Origin: Elusimicrobiota bacterium
Lineage (GTDB): Bacteria > Elusimicrobiota > Elusimicrobia > Elusimicrobiales > UBA9959
Direction of reading: 5' to 3'
DNA length: 64,000 nt
NCBI GenBank assembly: GCA_019135865.1
Contig: JAGVVD010000042.1
Span: 1-64,000 of the forward strand
Within the stretch, counting starts at the first letter, position 1, and every line of letters starts with the position of its first letter. This document shows, one piece after another, positions 16,682-56,900 of this stretch. A model generated the notes under the pieces. It was not told the DNA's origin, ran no database searches, and was given only the letters and a program-made list of their open reading frames with translations. The position numbers and the translations under genes are program-made.

Positions 16682-16720
16682 AGGCCTTTGGACCTATTAA
16701 AAACCGGGACCTTTGGCCTT
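16682..16720 (+). promoter_or_regulatory. GGNCC octamer array, region A
   Basis: AGGCCTTTGGACCTA at 16682-16696 and GGGACCTTTGGCCTT at 16706-16720 are two copies of a GGNCC-TTT-GGNCC unit upstream of the secreted protease. The same type of array occurs at 36867-36918 and 56028-56097. 16604-16681 shows nothing else beyond an AT-rich TTCTAATATA. Confidence 0.5.
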
Positions 16721-16733
16721 TGATTATAATCAA
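16720..16733 (+). promoter_or_regulatory. palindrome TTGATTATAATCAA with -10-like TATAAT
   Basis: A perfect 14-bp palindrome directly after the octamer array contains TATAAT at 16725-16730. It ends 43 bases before the protease start codon. No -35 match is seen at 16-18 bases, so activation by a bound protein is possible. Confidence 0.4.
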
Positions 16734-16776
16734 GGGGAGGGGTACAAAGTATATGCAACACGATCACGGAGGCTTA

Positions 16777-17787
16777 ATGAACAACATCGCGCTGACAACA
16801 CTGTTCCTCGCCGTATCCGTTCTTCCCTCTCCGCTGAAAGCCGAAAACAAGGTCATCTACGGTAATGATGACCGCCTCGAATATTTCCAGGCGCCGGCCG
16901 ACCAGAGAAGGCTGGCCGACTCGGTCGTCTCCCTGTGGCAGACCTGGGACCTGAAGAAGGAAGGCGACAATTACTCCCTGCGCACCGCCAGGTTCGCCGA
17001 CGCCGTGGGCGTCTGCGCCTCCGAACCCTTCTCCCAGCAGCCCCTGGGCGCTTTCTGCTCGGGCACGCTGGTGGGGGAGGACCTGATAATGACCGCCGGC
17101 CACTGTGTGAGGACGCAGGAGGACTGCGATAACACCATGTTCGTTTTCGGCTTCAGGAACGACGGGTCCGGTACCGCCCCGTCCGTCGTGCCGGCCTCCC
17201 AGGTCTATTCCTGCAGGAGCATAGAGAAATGGGCGCTGCAGATGGGGGGACCGGCTCCCGAGGAACCCGGCGCGGCCGGGCTCGGGGCGGACTACGCGCT
17301 GCTGCGCATAGACCGCGCGGCGGAAGGCAGGCAACCCCTGGCCGTCAACCGGGGGGCCTCTCCCGCCAAGGGGACCCCGCTCTTCGTGATAGGCCACCCG
17401 GTGGGGCTGCCCCTGAAGGTGGCGGGAGGCGCCGCGGTGCGCGATCCCGGCCAGCCCGGCTACTTCGTGGCCAACCTCGACACTTACGGCGGCAATTCCG
17501 GCTCCCCGGTCTTCAACCTCGGGACGAACCTCATCGAAGGGATCCTGGTGCGCGGCGAGACCGATTTCGTCTACGAGGGCGATTGCCGCGTCTCTTACCG
17601 CGTGGAGGACGAAGGCGGCCGCGGCGAGGACGTGACCAAGATCTCGGAGCTCGCCGCGTTCATCCCCGTTTCCAAGGGAGAGACCGCCTACCTCGGCCTG
17701 ACGGCCTCCCTGCCGGCCGCGCGCGAACCGGACCTGGCAGGGCTCGAGTCCGTAAGGACGGCTTTCTCCCGCGGCTTCCCGCAGTGA
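16777..17787 (+). CDS. secreted trypsin-like serine protease
   Basis: The 336-residue protein starts with a signal peptide (ALTTLFLAVSVLPSPLKAEN) and has the S1-type chymotrypsin fold. The triad is visible: His in MTAGHCV, Asp in GADYALLRID and Ser in YGGNSGSPVFN. Several cysteines (CASEPF, CSGTL, GHCV, EDCD, YSCRS, GDCRVSY) suggest disulphides in the periplasm or outside the cell. ATG 16777 follows CGGAGG; an upstream in-frame start lacks a ribosome site. The V8-like GNSGSP motif fits bacterial glutamyl or general endopeptidases. Preceded by an octamer array, followed by a strong terminator. Confidence 0.85.
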   Translation: MNNIALTTLFLAVSVLPSPLKAENKVIYGNDDRLEYFQAPADQRRLADSVVSLWQTWDLKKEGDNYSLRTARFADAVGVCASEPFSQQPLGAFCSGTLVGEDLIMTAGHCVRTQEDCDNTMFVFGFRNDGSGTAPSVVPASQVYSCRSIEKWALQMGGPAPEEPGAAGLGADYALLRIDRAAEGRQPLAVNRGASPAKGTPLFVIGHPVGLPLKVAGGAAVRDPGQPGYFVANLDTYGGNSGSPVFNLGTNLIEGILVRGETDFVYEGDCRVSYRVEDEGGRGEDVTKISELAAFIPVSKGETAYLGLTASLPAAREPDLAGLESVRTAFSRGFPQ

Positions 17788-28514: not shown

Positions 28515-29096
28515 ATGAAAAAAGACCTGCTTGCCGGTATCATATTTTTCGCGGTGACGATGGCCGCCTACGCCCATTGCGGCAAATGCCCGGACGACAA
28601 GAAAGCGGAAGGCGTCAAGGACGGCCCCAAGGTGGAGTGCCCCATGGCCGCCAAGGAAGCGGGCGCGAAGGGCCACGACTGTCCGCACGCCAAAGCGGCC
28701 GAAGGCAAGAAGCACGACTGCCCCGGGATGAAAGGCGAAAAGGGCCACGACTGCGGCAAGCACAAGGACGGCAAGTCCGCCGCCTGCCCCAAACAGATGG
28801 AAGGCGTCGAGAAGACCGTTAAGAACACCAAGGACGGGGTCGAGCTAACGCTGGCCGCCAAGGGCAAGGAGATGATAGCCAAACTTCAGGAACTGACCGC
28901 CGTCCACTACGCCGGCGGCAACTGCTCCTGTCTGCCCAAGGACGCCACCGCCAAGTACGAGAACACCGAGACCGGCGTCAAGATATACCTGGCCTCCGCT
29001 AACGCCGCGACCGTCAAGGCCATGCAGGCCCGGTACGCGGACGGCGGCCACAAGTGCGGCATGGAGCACGGCAAGGAAGAGAAGGCCAAAAAATGA
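28515..29096 (+). CDS. periplasmic Cys/His-rich metal-binding protein
   Basis: The 193-residue protein has a signal peptide (LLAGIIFFAVTMAAYAHCG). Residues about 20-100 hold repeated Cys/His/Lys units: HCGKCPDDK, VECPMAAK, GHDCPHAK, KHDCPGMK, GHDCGKHK, AACPKQ. A second domain follows (VEKTVKNTKDGVELTLAAK, NCSCLPKDATAKYE, VKIYLASANAATVKAMQ) and a last KCGMEHGKE. The repeats look like a metal sponge or chaperone. It is divergent from the Fur operon and overlaps the Crp-type regulator gene by 4 bases. The metal is not identified. Confidence 0.65.
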   Translation: MKKDLLAGIIFFAVTMAAYAHCGKCPDDKKAEGVKDGPKVECPMAAKEAGAKGHDCPHAKAAEGKKHDCPGMKGEKGHDCGKHKDGKSAACPKQMEGVEKTVKNTKDGVELTLAAKGKEMIAKLQELTAVHYAGGNCSCLPKDATAKYENTETGVKIYLASANAATVKAMQARYADGGHKCGMEHGKEEKAKK

Positions 29097-29770
29097 CCCT
29101 GCACAAGGCGCTCGAGAAAGTAACCTTCCTCAAAGGGCTGGGCAAGGCCGACCTTAACCATATCGTGAAGATCGCCTCCGTCCGCCGCTACAAGGCGGGG
29201 GACATGGTCTTCAACAAGGAAGAGGTGGGGAAGAACTTTTTCATCGTCAACGCCGGGAAGATCAAGATCTTCACCTCGCTCGGCGGCGGCAAGCGCAAGA
29301 CCTTCGCCTTCCTGGGCAAAGGGGACTTCTTCGGCGAGATGTCCCTGCTCGGCGGCAAGATACGCTCCGCCTCGGCCCAGGCCGCGGAGGACACCGAGCT
29401 GCTGGTCATCTCCAAGCTGAACTTCGGCAGACTGGTGATGCGCCACGCCGACTTCAGCATGAAGATAATCCGCACCCTGGTGGAACGCCTGAACAAGGCC
29501 GACAAGGAGATCGAGTCCATGTTGTTCCACAATATACTGGGACGGCTGGCCTCGGCCATACTCGACCTCGAGGCCAAGTCGAAGACCGGTCCGCTCACCG
29601 TGGAGATAGGCCAGGGCGAACTGGCCGAGTACCTGGGCACCACGCGCGTCCCCGTCTGCCGGGCGGTCAACTCGCTCAAGCGCAGCGGGATAATCGACTA
29701 TAAGCGCGGACGCATACTCGTCAAGAGCAAGGCCAGACTGCAGTCGATGGCCGCCAGGGCGCGCGGATGA
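29093..29770 (+). CDS. Crp/Fnr-family transcriptional regulator
   Basis: The 225-residue regulator has an N-terminal cyclic-nucleotide-type barrel (FFIVNAGKIKIFTSL, FAFLGKGDFFGEMSLLGG) and a C-terminal winged helix (GQGELAEYLGTTRVPVCRAVNSLKRSGIIDYKRGRILVKSK). The Fnr-type cysteines are missing, so oxygen sensing by an iron-sulphur cluster is unlikely. The ligand pocket lacks a clear cAMP RxSA match. ATG 29093 overlaps the stop of the Cys/His-rich gene; hisS overlaps its end by ATGA. The neighbours suggest a stress or metal response role, but this is inference. Confidence 0.88.
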   Translation: MTLHKALEKVTFLKGLGKADLNHIVKIASVRRYKAGDMVFNKEEVGKNFFIVNAGKIKIFTSLGGGKRKTFAFLGKGDFFGEMSLLGGKIRSASAQAAEDTELLVISKLNFGRLVMRHADFSMKIIRTLVERLNKADKEIESMLFHNILGRLASAILDLEAKSKTGPLTVEIGQGELAEYLGTTRVPVCRAVNSLKRSGIIDYKRGRILVKSKARLQSMAARARG

Positions 29771-36866: not shown

Positions 36867-36918
36867 GGTCCCTTATGGGCCTTTAGTCCCGCCCGGAGCC
36901 TGGGCCCTAAAGCCCTTA
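36867..36918 (+). promoter_or_regulatory. GGNCC octamer array, region B
   Basis: GGTCCCTTATGGGCCTTTAG and TCCC (36867-36890), then GGGCCCTAAAGCCCTTA (36902-36918), immediately upstream of the promoter for the secreted protein at 36978. Same motif style as at 16682-16720 and 56028-56097. Confidence 0.5.
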
Positions 36919-36944
36919 ACCGGCCGCCGCCTTTAATGTAGAAT
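36916..36944 (+). promoter_or_regulatory. promoter for the secreted protein gene at 36978
   Basis: TTAACC (36916-36921), a 17-base spacer and TAGAAT (36939-36944). The -35 overlaps the end of the octamer array, so a bound factor would touch polymerase. The -10 context ATGTAGAATATA is nearly identical to that at 56167. Confidence 0.6.
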
Positions 36945-36977: not shown

Positions 36978-37832
36978 ATGTTCAAACTAGCAGCCGCTAT
37001 AGCACTGTTTTCCGCGCCGCTTCAGGCCGCCAACTTCCAGCTCGACGCCGTCACCGCCAATGACTTGACCGCCGCCGAGGTTTCGCTGCCGCAAGCGCAG
37101 GAGCCGGAGGCCGCCCTGGACAAGGCCGGCGTCCTCACCAGCCTTCACCTCATGCCCCAGGCCGTCAGGAGCCGCCTGCTCTCCTTCGGGACCCCGGCCC
37201 AGTTCGCCGAGTTCACCGCCGTATGGAACCCGATACTGCAGGAAGCGGGGATGGTCATCGGCGAGGTCACCTACGAGGCCGACATACAGCTGGGCATCGT
37301 CAACTACTCCTCAGCCGACGGACTGGTACTGCGCCGCCTCATAGCCGACAGGCTCAACTACGACGCGCTCAACCCCACCGAGATGCACAACCTCAAAACG
37401 GAGATGGAAACCGCCCTCGCGAAGAACGGCCTGCCCGTGAAGGCCTCCTTCTACGTCAAGTCCGACGCGCTGCGCCCCACCTTCGTCATCTACTACGTCA
37501 CGAAGGGCGACGAGAACGACGACCACGAGAAACAGATGCGCATACTCAAGAAGGGCGAGGACATAGACTACGACCTGCTCGAGAGCGCCGGCGTCAACAT
37601 AATCCGCAGGGACAATTCCTTCACGATGCTCTACATCGGCAAAGAGCTCGGCTTCAAGTCCAAGGTCGCGACCGACGAGGCCTCCGCCGCGCAGAAGCTC
37701 GAGGACTACAAGAAGTTCCTCGCCGAGAACGACAAGGAGTTCCTCGGCTCCAGGACCCACAAGCTGACCGAGCCCTTCACCGTCGGGGAGACGACCTACA
37801 ACTACCTCCTCAACATGTACTTCTACCAGTAA
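36978..37832 (+). CDS. secreted protein, unknown, with FxLDxxxAxD N-terminal motif
   Basis: The 284-residue protein starts with a signal peptide (FKLAAAIALFSAPLQAAN), and the mature part begins FQLDAVTANDLTAAEVSLP, strongly resembling the start of the mature protein encoded at 20316-21254 (EFALDRLSAADVAAVGTALP). The rest is alpha/beta without a known motif; a charged region KGDENDDHEKQMRILKKGED lies near residue 180. No cysteine is present. It has its own promoter with an octamer array and is closed by a strong terminator, so it is a single-gene unit. Confidence 0.6.
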   Translation: MFKLAAAIALFSAPLQAANFQLDAVTANDLTAAEVSLPQAQEPEAALDKAGVLTSLHLMPQAVRSRLLSFGTPAQFAEFTAVWNPILQEAGMVIGEVTYEADIQLGIVNYSSADGLVLRRLIADRLNYDALNPTEMHNLKTEMETALAKNGLPVKASFYVKSDALRPTFVIYYVTKGDENDDHEKQMRILKKGEDIDYDLLESAGVNIIRRDNSFTMLYIGKELGFKSKVATDEASAAQKLEDYKKFLAENDKEFLGSRTHKLTEPFTVGETTYNYLLNMYFYQ

Positions 37833-53952: not shown

Positions 53953-54046
53953 GTTCGGTGTGCTCCTGGATACTCTGGATTGGCCGGTTTGGCCGGCCCG
54001 GTCCTTTGGGAGACCGTGCCCATATGATACTAAATCCTTATAGCGG

Positions 54047-54925: not shown

Positions 54926-55909
54926 TTATTCGGCCGCGGCCATGCAGAGCAGGGGCGCGGCGGCCCTGAATTCCTGCGTACCGGAGAGGTCGGTGCGGAA
55001 GATCTCCGCGCCGGCCTCCAGCAGGCGGGAGACGGCCTCGGGATGCGGGTGCCCGTAGTTGTTGGCGCCGACCTCTATGTAGGCCCTCGCGGGACGGACG
55101 GCCGCCAGGAAAGGCGAGGTGGAGGAATACCTGCTGCCGTGATGGCCCACTTTGAGTATGTCGGAGCGGAGACCGGCGCCGTACTCCTTCACCAGCCGGG
55201 CCTCGACGTCCTCTCCCGCGTCGCCGGTGAAAAGCAGGGACGCGCCCGCGTGCTCGAGGCGCAGCGTGATGGAGCAGTTGTTGAGGGTCTCGCTGTTCTT
55301 GCTCGCGAAAGGCTCGTGGCAGGAACTGAGGACTTTCACTTCCACGCCGGCGGACCAGTCGAGCGAGTCGCCGGGAGCGGGATAAGCGGTCGTCACGCCC
55401 AGTTCCGCCGCCTTCGCCCTGACGGCGTCGTCGCCGGTGGCGGCGGAATTGTCCACGCGGGTGTCGTAGAAGGCGCCCACCGCGTAATTGGCGAAGACGT
55501 GCTGGAGCCCTTTGTAATGGTCGGAGTGGGGATGGGTCAGCACCACATGGTCTATGGAAGAGATCCCCCGTTCCTTCAGGAACAGCGCCAGCGGCCCGGA
55601 GGAGGACGAGGAGGGGCCCCCGTCTATGAGGGCGTTCCTGCCGTCCGGGAACTCCATGTAGATCGCGTCGCCCTGGCCGACGCTCACGAAATAGACGCTG
55701 AGGCCGGGGGCGGGGCGCAGCAGCGTCGCCTCCGGCGGCTCGGCGGCCGGCAGGGGCGCCAGGAAGGCGGCGGCGCTCTCCGCCAGGGAGGCCAGGGAAT
55801 CGAAGGCCTCCCCGGCGCGCGCCGGGGCGTAAAGAGAGACGGAAAGGAGGAACGCCGCGAATACGGACTTCAGGACGGCTGCGACATTATTCGACGCTGA
55901 ACGGGCCAT
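54926..55909 (-). CDS. secreted ComEC/Rec2-like metallo-beta-lactamase-fold hydrolase
   Basis: The product has 327 residues from ATG 55909, just after GAGGTGG. A signal peptide (VFAAFLLSVSLYAPARAGE) precedes the MBL domain: VYFVSVGQGDAIYMEFP, LIDGGPSSSSSG, LTHPHSDHYKGL (HxHxDH zinc motif), LLFTGDAGEDVE and LKVGHHGSRYSS. This is the stand-alone hydrolase found in ComEC, here without the transmembrane channel. It may be an extracellular nuclease or phosphodiesterase. Its upstream region holds the third GGNCC octamer array. Confidence 0.85.
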   Translation of the reverse strand: MARSASNNVAAVLKSVFAAFLLSVSLYAPARAGEAFDSLASLAESAAAFLAPLPAAEPPEATLLRPAPGLSVYFVSVGQGDAIYMEFPDGRNALIDGGPSSSSSGPLALFLKERGISSIDHVVLTHPHSDHYKGLQHVFANYAVGAFYDTRVDNSAATGDDAVRAKAAELGVTTAYPAPGDSLDWSAGVEVKVLSSCHEPFASKNSETLNNCSITLRLEHAGASLLFTGDAGEDVEARLVKEYGAGLRSDILKVGHHGSRYSSTSPFLAAVRPARAYIEVGANNYGHPHPEAVSRLLEAGAEIFRTDLSGTQEFRAAAPLLCMAAAE

Positions 55910-56027
55910 AGTATCCACCTCAGCAAGACTTACAACGCCTGGTATTCCGCGCCGAGTGGTGAATCCGGATTAAGGTCCGGAGGTGGATACTCCCCGGCCT
56001 ATCCCGGGGATTACACAGCGGCAGATA

Positions 56028-56097
56028 TAACCTATGGACAAAAGACCCTCCGGGCAAGGACCAAAGGGCCTATGTGTCCATAGGACCTTAGGCCTAT
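56028..56097 (-). promoter_or_regulatory. GGNCC octamer array and inverted repeat, region C
   Basis: On the minus strand the array reads GGCCTAA, GGTCCTAT, GGACACAT, AGGCCCTTT, GGTCCTTG in succession. CCTATGGACA (56031-56040) and TGTCCATAGG (56075-56084) form a 10-bp inverted repeat. It lies in the divergent gap between the secreted ComEC-like gene and trmJ; orientation is ambiguous because the motif is near-palindromic. Confidence 0.55.
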
Positions 56098-56168
56098 CGT
56101 CAAGTGCCGGGGCGTCCGGCCGGACGCCGCCCGGGGAGTACGCGCCCGCCGGCGGCGTTCCGTTTATG

Positions 56169-56174
56169 TAGAAT
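56169..56174 (+). promoter_or_regulatory. -10 box of a probable leaderless trmJ transcript
   Basis: TAGAAT is six bases before ATG 56181. The context TTTATGTAGAATATAGG nearly equals the -10 region at 36933-36950. No ribosome site fits. Confidence 0.6.
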
Positions 56175-56180
56175 ATAGGC

Positions 56181-56900
56181 ATGGCCGAAGAAACGACCCC
56201 GCCTTTAAGGATAGTCCTGGCCCGTCCGCGAAACCCCGTGAACATCGGGGCGGCGGCAAGAGCCATGGCCAACTTCGGCCTCTCGGACCTGGCGGCCGCC
56301 GCCCCTCACCCTCCGGTCTGGAAAGAAGCGCTGACCGAGAACCGGGCGGCCGTGGGGGCCGGGCACCTGCTGGACAGGGCGGCGGTATGCGGGTCCATCC
56401 CGGCCGCGGCGGAGGGCTGCTCCCTGGTCCTGGGCACTTCAGCGCTGAACAGGCGCAGCCCCGACAGGGAGGTCATACCCCTGCCGCTGGCCGCCGAATA
56501 TATAAGGAAGAACTCCGGCGGCGGACGCGCCGCGATAGTCTTCGGACCGGAAAAGCACGGCCTTACGGAGGAGGATCTCTCCCATTGCCGGGCCATCATA
56601 GCGGTGCCGACCGCCGACGCGCAGCCCTCCATGAACCTGGGGCACGCCGTGGCCGTGGTCTGCTATGAACTGGCGGGCAGGGCCGGTCCCGCGGGAGGCG
56701 GAAGGACGGCGCGGCCGGCCAGAGCGGCGGCTTCCCCGGGGGAACTGGATTCCACCGCGGCGGAGATCATCGGTTTTATAGAAAGGACCGGGGGCGGAAA
56801 ATCGCCGGCGCAGATACGGCGCGCCGTACAGGACCTGGCGGGGGAAAAAGAGGCCCTTTCGCTGCTGCGGCTGCTCGTCCGCAGGGCGTCGGATCCGTAG
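56181..56900 (+). CDS. TrmJ/SpoU-family RNA 2'-O-methyltransferase
   Basis: The 239-residue SPOUT-fold methyltransferase has VLARPRNPVNIGAAARAMANFG (motif 1), VIFGPEKHGLTEEDLSHC in the form AAIVFGPEKHGLT (motif 2) and VPTADAQPSMNLGHAVAVVCYEL (motif 3), forming the knotted SAM site. TrmJ modifies position 32 of tRNAs. The C-terminal 60 residues are an added helical domain as in TrmJ. Its start is 6 bases from a -10, so the transcript is likely leaderless. Confidence 0.88.
   Translation: MAEETTPPLRIVLARPRNPVNIGAAARAMANFGLSDLAAAAPHPPVWKEALTENRAAVGAGHLLDRAAVCGSIPAAAEGCSLVLGTSALNRRSPDREVIPLPLAAEYIRKNSGGGRAAIVFGPEKHGLTEEDLSHCRAIIAVPTADAQPSMNLGHAVAVVCYELAGRAGPAGGGRTARPARAAASPGELDSTAAEIIGFIERTGGGKSPAQIRRAVQDLAGEKEALSLLRLLVRRASDP

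Follow-up and report, generated by a model that had tools for sequence, protein, structure and literature searches.

Background

Among the described systems closest to the element reported here are the met-boxes of the Escherichia coli methionine regulon and the promoter sites of the Streptomyces regulator BldC. MetJ is reported to recognise an 8-bp palindrome that occurs in tandem (work cited in PMC3274233). BldC assembles as co-operative multimers on promoter sites that vary in repeat number and controls a large regulon, its units being direct AT-rich repeats of the form AATTXXXX(C) (PMC5859096). Here we describe arrays of short palindromic boxes, mostly GGNCC, in a 64,000-nt stretch of an Elusimicrobiota genome (contig JAGVVD010000042.1, positions 1-64,000; hereafter the window), where they precede three genes for secreted proteins. 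No account of such boxes in Elusimicrobiota was found in the literature searched. The evidence suggests, with a probability of about 0.74, that the arrays are DNA operators of one oligomerising, sequence-specific protein, which would control a secretome regulon in the class Elusimicrobia.

Layout of the arrays in the window

Operator boxes were taken as RGNCY, and promoters in the three intergenic regions (A, B and C; Table 1) were set by consensus with a 17-bp spacer. An earlier note on this stretch had reported arrays at these three places, and all of them can be read directly. Relative to a sigma-70-like promoter they have one common layout, with boxes at about -73, -65, -48 and -40. The register is -73, -65, -48 and -40 in region A, -74/-73, -66, -49/-48 and -40 in region B, and -73/-72, -65, -49/-48 and -40 on the minus strand in region C. 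In addition to its main boxes, region B has an outlying GGTCC at 36867. The final box abuts the -35 hexamer in all three regions, a contact that had been pointed out for region B. The arrays had also been described as plain tandems of a near-palindromic unit of about 7-8 bp; the palindromic boxes were borne out, but instead of a tandem octamer we find boxes paired at a distance of 8 bp, with the pair repeated every 24-25 bp. Our own initial model of a uniform 8-bp lattice was dropped, as the boxes lie mainly in such pairs. The operator unit is GGNCC-N3-GGNCC, a 13-bp palindrome built from two 5-bp palindromes and recurring every ~24-25 bp. A weaker site proposed near 54001 is a single lone box (GGTCCTTTGGGAG) and does not qualify as an array.

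Spacing of GGNCC boxes in the home genome

The home genome (2.95 Mb in 59 contigs, 63-65% G+C) belongs to the order Elusimicrobiales, metagenome-assembled genomes of that order being its closest named relatives. It was sampled as stretches amounting to ~1.12 Mb (38%), with genes called by a simple codon-usage script; genes, promoters and signal peptides were all called by simple rules throughout. Lone GGNCC sites are not enriched between genes (8.3 per kb, versus 9.1 per kb in coding sequences). Intergenic pairs of sites at particular distances are in excess over first-order Markov shuffles, with 25 versus 6.8 pairs at 8 bp, 26 versus 8.3 at 16 bp and 54 versus ~19.5 at 23-25 bp. In coding DNA the spacing of GGNCC follows codon periodicity only. 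With a chain score of at least 4, 26 intergenic arrays were found versus 3.4 in shuffles (maximum 7), and with a score of at least 6 there were 9 versus 0.35. Spacing, not single-site frequency, is the special property of GGNCC in intergenic DNA.

Third boxes around GGNCC pairs show the same preference, falling at 15-17 bp (25 versus ~3.8 expected), 22-26 bp (19 versus ~4.6) and 38-39 bp (10 versus ~2). The excess at 8-9 bp is smaller (9 versus ~3), and there is none at 8 bp in f2, a sister gut family with genomes of 1.1-2.3 Mb. A strict box-3-box-TTG-...-10 pattern, which is too narrow for the home genome, identified three promoters there, all before signal-peptide genes, versus 0.2 in shuffles. 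Searching with the strict pattern GGNCCTWTNGGNCC gave five hits only and missed regions A, B and C altogether, from which it follows that the operator unit is degenerate. One further sequence that scores as an array, L242:5604-5729 in genome G014, is a TTCAGTC/TTCAGCC direct-repeat run just before a gene start; it is unlike the operator and is probably a separate tandem repeat.

Association with genes for exported proteins

Genes downstream of arrays in the home genome carry a signal peptide in 24/36 cases, versus 78/395 at other intergenic regions (Fisher p = 1e-8). When the 1.12-Mb sample is counted by intergenic region, 22 of the 26 arrays precede a signal-peptide gene, versus 77 of 312 other regions; none of the 26 lies between convergent genes, and 58 of the other regions are convergent. 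A test for enrichment of this kind in the genome and its relatives had been proposed, and the enrichment extends to f2, as described below. Pfam searches of ten targets returned peptidyl-arginine deiminase-like, phospholipase D, clostripain, papain, zinc carboxypeptidase, LolA-like and outer-membrane efflux protein matches, two proteins with Lnb domains and one without a match. Many array targets have no Pfam match at all. The targets are secreted proteins, many of them hydrolases, not secretion machinery. The earlier suggestion of a shared operator for secretion genes is accordingly narrowed: the fixed register, the signal-peptide counts and the conserved loci uphold a shared operator of signal-peptide genes, and the machinery of secretion drops out of it.

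The mature N-termini of many targets look similar (37020-37100 in the window, and at loci L015, L014 and L006). In these, a Pro/Ala-rich segment follows a short amphipathic one, for example FQLDAVTANDLTAAEVSLPQAQEPEAA and FDLDSMTLSEVTAIEVPEAAAG, and the N-termini could represent a sorting or pro-peptide signal.

Conservation and range across Elusimicrobiota

Comparisons were made among 295 genomes of the phylum, grouped under the anonymous family labels f1-f28, f1 being the window's own family. Same-genus orthologs of regions A, B and C vary in 4 of 48 columns within boxes versus 26 of 72 within spacers (p = 4e-4). The spaced pair GGNCCTTTGGNCC was counted against a reversed-pattern control and is enriched in f2 (373 versus 76 in 79 genomes), f7 (309 versus 121) and f8 (71 versus 33). 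Outside the class Elusimicrobia it is not enriched, with 11 occurrences versus 58 for the reversed pattern (106 genomes, hand-summed). Counts of GGNCCTTTGGNCC in the GC-rich f1 are uninformative because the reversed control is equally common there, and the pattern RGNCCNNNGGNCY proved too loose for telling families apart by counts.

Thirty f2 loci were fetched, of which 21 are clearly intergenic, and all 21 precede a signal-peptide gene; the identical permissive test at random intergenic midpoints gave 32/84. At the f2 loci, 34 of 50 further boxes sit on a lattice of 15-17, 22-24 and 38-40 bp (29% expected, p = 1e-8), and in most of these loci the -35 comes directly after the final box. Relatives with a G+C content near 40% show the pattern as well. 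One promoter rule is present in two families, the home family and f2, of very different base composition. The earlier note would have given up the motif had it occurred at random in all intergenic regions or been absent from related genomes; instead, the same loci are conserved and the boxes recur before signal-peptide genes in f2.

A second element at protease promoters

Upstream regions were compared for relatives of the region A protease, and a composite promoter is common to 46 of the 79. In these 46, boxes at about -89, -73, -65 and -49 are followed by TTGACNTTNGTCAA, N8 and GTATAACAT. The first of these sequences joins the -35 to an inverted half within the spacer (dyad TTGAC-N4-GTCAA), while the second is a strongly conserved -10 (window 16720-16733 and L131-L209). 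Allowing at most one mismatch, the core TTGACNTTNGTCAA-N8-GTATAACAT was found in 29/295 phylum genomes, all of them f1. TTGAC-N4-GTCAA on the -35, with its fixed -10, is a second element, limited to f1.

A CRP/FNR-family protein of f1 is a candidate reader of this dyad, though not of the GGNCC boxes. It is encoded in the window, and 15/16 f1 genomes have a CRP/FNR protein. The recognition helix of the window protein, TRVPVCR, was read in 10/12 fetched f1 loci, with hisS as the next gene in those inspected, and is without the E..SR residues expected for FNR-type sites. The gene and the protease are no more than ~2 kb apart in genomes G004, G008, G013 and G015. In f2, where the boxes occur, CRP/FNR proteins are almost entirely missing, and so are not the readers of GGNCC boxes there. 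Directly preceding the CRP/FNR gene in the window (28515-29096, plus strand) is a gene for a small His/Cys-rich exported protein (CGKCPDDKK..., CGKHKDGK), a possible metal binder.

Genes and leader beside the arrays

Coordinates of the operators, promoters and adjoining features are collected in Table 1. The region C array serves the minus-strand gene, and a riboswitch aptamer sits between the two. The promoter placed by the box register predicts a transcription start at ~56022, a single base ahead of the aptamer (5' end at 56021). This match supports the promoter assignment in region C and means that the boxes are not part of the RNA. The array is conserved in relatives, as is the riboswitch leader. 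Paralogous copies of the riboswitch leader together with the ComEC-like hydrolase gene seem to be present, for example at L117.

Table 1. Proposed operators, promoters and neighbouring features in the window (positions 1-64,000)
Feature	Coordinates	Strand	Details
Region A distal operator	16682..16694	+	AGGCC (16682) and GGACC (16690), -73/-65; kept in G001, G002
Region A proximal operator	16707..16719	+	GGACC (16707) and GGCCT (16715), -48/-40, abuts -35; kept in G001, G002
Region A dyad	16720..16733	+	TTGATTATAATCAA; inferred -35 in bases 1-6; TACAAA at 16743-16748 after a spacer of 17
Region A gene	16777..17787	+	Secreted trypsin-like serine protease; PF13365, E = 3.8e-16; signal peptide by crude rule
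CRP/FNR-family regulator	29093-29770	+	Unusual recognition helix TRVPVCR; just before hisS
Region B distal operator	36877..36889	+	GGGCC/GGCCT (36877/36878) and AGTCC (36885), ~-74/-66; kept in G001-G003
Region B proximal operator	36902..36915	+	GGGCCC (36902/3) and AGCCC (36911), -48/-40; kept in G001-G003
Region B promoter	36916-36921; 36939-36944	+	Inferred -35 TTAACC, touching proximal operator; -10 TAGAAT
Region B gene	36978..37832	+	Secreted protein, no Pfam match; orthologs in f1
Region C gene	54926..55909	-	Secreted ComEC-like metallo-beta-lactamase-fold hydrolase; PF00753, E = 4e-18; signal peptide by crude rule
2'-dG-II riboswitch aptamer	55951..56021	-	RF03165, 67.5 bits versus gathering cut-off 60, positions 1-71 of 71
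Region C promoter	56057-56052; 56034-56029	-	Inferred -35 TTGCCC, touching proximal operator; -10 TAGGTT
Region C proximal operator	56058..56071	-	AGGCCC (5' end 56071/70) and GGTCC (5' end 56062), -48/-40
Region C distal operator	56083..56095	-	AGGCC (5' end 56095) and GGTCC (5' end 56087), -73/-65; G001-G003 keep register, some box changes

The 10-bp inverted repeat that had been noticed in region C is present as CCTATGGACA/TGTCCATAGG (56031-56040 / 56075-56084). On the minus strand one arm lies over the inferred -10 and the other between both operators, and the repeat is partly kept in G001-G003. At 56160-56185, a SpoU-like methylase gene has its -10 (TAGAATAT) only ~10 bp before the ATG and is probably transcribed without a leader.

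Nature of the proposed regulator

Bound to the proximal operator copy (-48/-40, centre ~-42), a dimer or tetramer would contact RNA polymerase at the -35 in a class II-like manner. The copies ~24-25 bp further upstream (centres ~-67 and ~-91) would contribute contacts that are co-operative or of class I type. Both the binding of a protein and the use of a single protein for all arrays are inferred, the latter because the register is common to the arrays. Box position is what suggests activation: we favour it over repression because the boxes leave the region from -35 to +1 free and the -35 or -10 hexamer is poor in several promoters. Regions B and C have weak core hexamers, as would be expected if activation were needed. 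A class-wide secretome-regulon operator appears well supported; what sets it apart is a unit that is a palindrome of palindromes, together with a fixed register and a broad range of targets. More specifically, a dedicated and undescribed Elusimicrobia transcription factor, perhaps from a DNA-binding family that is itself new, may read GGNCC-N3-GGNCC in fixed register to the -35 and switch on exported proteins as a group, a proposal whose odds we place a little below even.

Several points weigh against an operator of this kind. The regulator was not found, and none of the four families tested (RHH_1, Arc, MetJ and HTH_17/BldC) shares the distribution of the boxes. A minority of arrays contain gapless 8-9 bp runs (e.g. 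L013), and certain home-genome arrays, such as L025:4270-4461, are off the register. Signal peptides were called by a crude rule, the promoter hexamers are consensus calls, and start sites and protein binding are predicted from sequence alone. The extension to f7 and f8 rests mainly on counts, apart from a few arrays that were read in one f8 genome.

Within the operator reading, a ribbon-helix-helix protein (MetJ-, Mnt- or omega-like) might be the reader, with a dimer on each GGNCC box and a tetramer on each 8-bp pair; this is unlikely, if still worth keeping in view. The phage P22 Mnt operator, with GGTCC/GGACC half-sites, provides a lead only. The 8-bp tandem palindrome of MetJ likewise recommends such a protein, but the distribution of the three ribbon-helix-helix families tested does not. 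MetJ passed the cut-off in 0/100 Elusimicrobiota genomes, with the E. coli control matching. RHH_1 was found in 6/25 genomes and is absent from the home genome and from most f1 and f2 genomes, and Arc, in 6/120, is sporadic across the phylum. HTH_17/BldC was also rejected, being absent from the box-carrying genomes G032, G085 and G099 and present in most box-less genomes of other classes. A local helix-turn-helix search in 400 kb of one f2 genome gave nothing useful.

It is distinctly unlikely that the same operator serves a repressor, whose oligomers would cover the boxes up to the -35 and block RNA polymerase. The final box does touch the -35, and the system nearest in geometry, MetJ, acts as a repressor (PMC3274233). 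However, the boxes reach upstream to about -97 and not downstream across the -10 or the start, and the core promoters in B and C are weak.

The remaining explanations place the boxes outside protein-operator control. GGNCC is a Sau96I-type recognition sequence, and clustered modification sites could in principle govern the access of RNA polymerase as a methylation switch, but we regard this as very improbable: the conserved positions hold many boxes of other sequence (AGACC, GGTCT, AGTCC) that a methylase would not read, and such a switch would have no need for fixed spacing. An RNA element, which the earlier note had offered as its alternative, would have the boxes act as leader hairpins or as terminators of upstream genes. 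GGNCC-N3-GGNCC could indeed form a short hairpin closed by a loop of 3 nt, but transcription is inferred to start downstream of the boxes, the whole riboswitch in region C begins only past the -10, arrays between convergent genes are lacking and pairs such as GGGCC/GGACC are often mismatched at the middle base, so that we regard this proposal as scarcely credible. Chance, an artefact of base composition or a dispersed repeat family can be set aside as a negligible prospect: the high G+C content and the unenriched single sites of the home genome would suit it, but not the spacing peaks above Markov shuffles, the persistence near 40% G+C, the 21/21 signal-peptide link or the want of common sequence beyond boxes and promoter.

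If the arrays are operators of one regulator, they would define a regulon by export, not by pathway. A class with hardly any genetics would gain a testable class-wide regulatory code, read from its DNA alone. Exported proteins of quite different function (trypsin-like, papain-like, clostripain and carboxypeptidase proteases, phospholipase D, peptidyl-arginine deiminase, LolA-like and efflux proteins) would be tied to one likely control point, and secreted proteins of no assigned function could thereby be found through their promoters. The question that this raises is which protein reads the boxes, and in response to what signal.

Comparison with known systems

Like the arrays described here, the met-boxes of the E. 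coli methionine regulon are palindromic units 8 bp apart that serve a regulon of many genes, with two to five units at each promoter. However, met-boxes form continuous runs for repression, whereas the Elusimicrobia boxes come mainly as pairs every 24-25 bp upstream of the -35, and the MetJ box sequence, AGACGTCT, is unlike GGNCC. Arc and Mnt operators are also made of short palindromic subsites, which are read by paired dimers; the half-sites of Mnt are GGNCC-like and ~10 bp apart. BldC arrays resemble those in Elusimicrobia in their variable repeat number at promoters and the large regulon, yet the Elusimicrobia units are GC-rich palindromes and not AT-rich direct repeats. In position, the likeness is to class II and class I activators such as CRP and FNR (at -41.5), which have a palindrome centred at about -42 beside the -35 and helper sites upstream at helical intervals. 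At the consensus-called promoters of regions A, B and C and of f2, the boxes fit this class II site position, ~-41.5 next to the -35. CRP and FNR sites differ in sequence, and the Elusimicrobia unit is shorter and made of two small palindromes.
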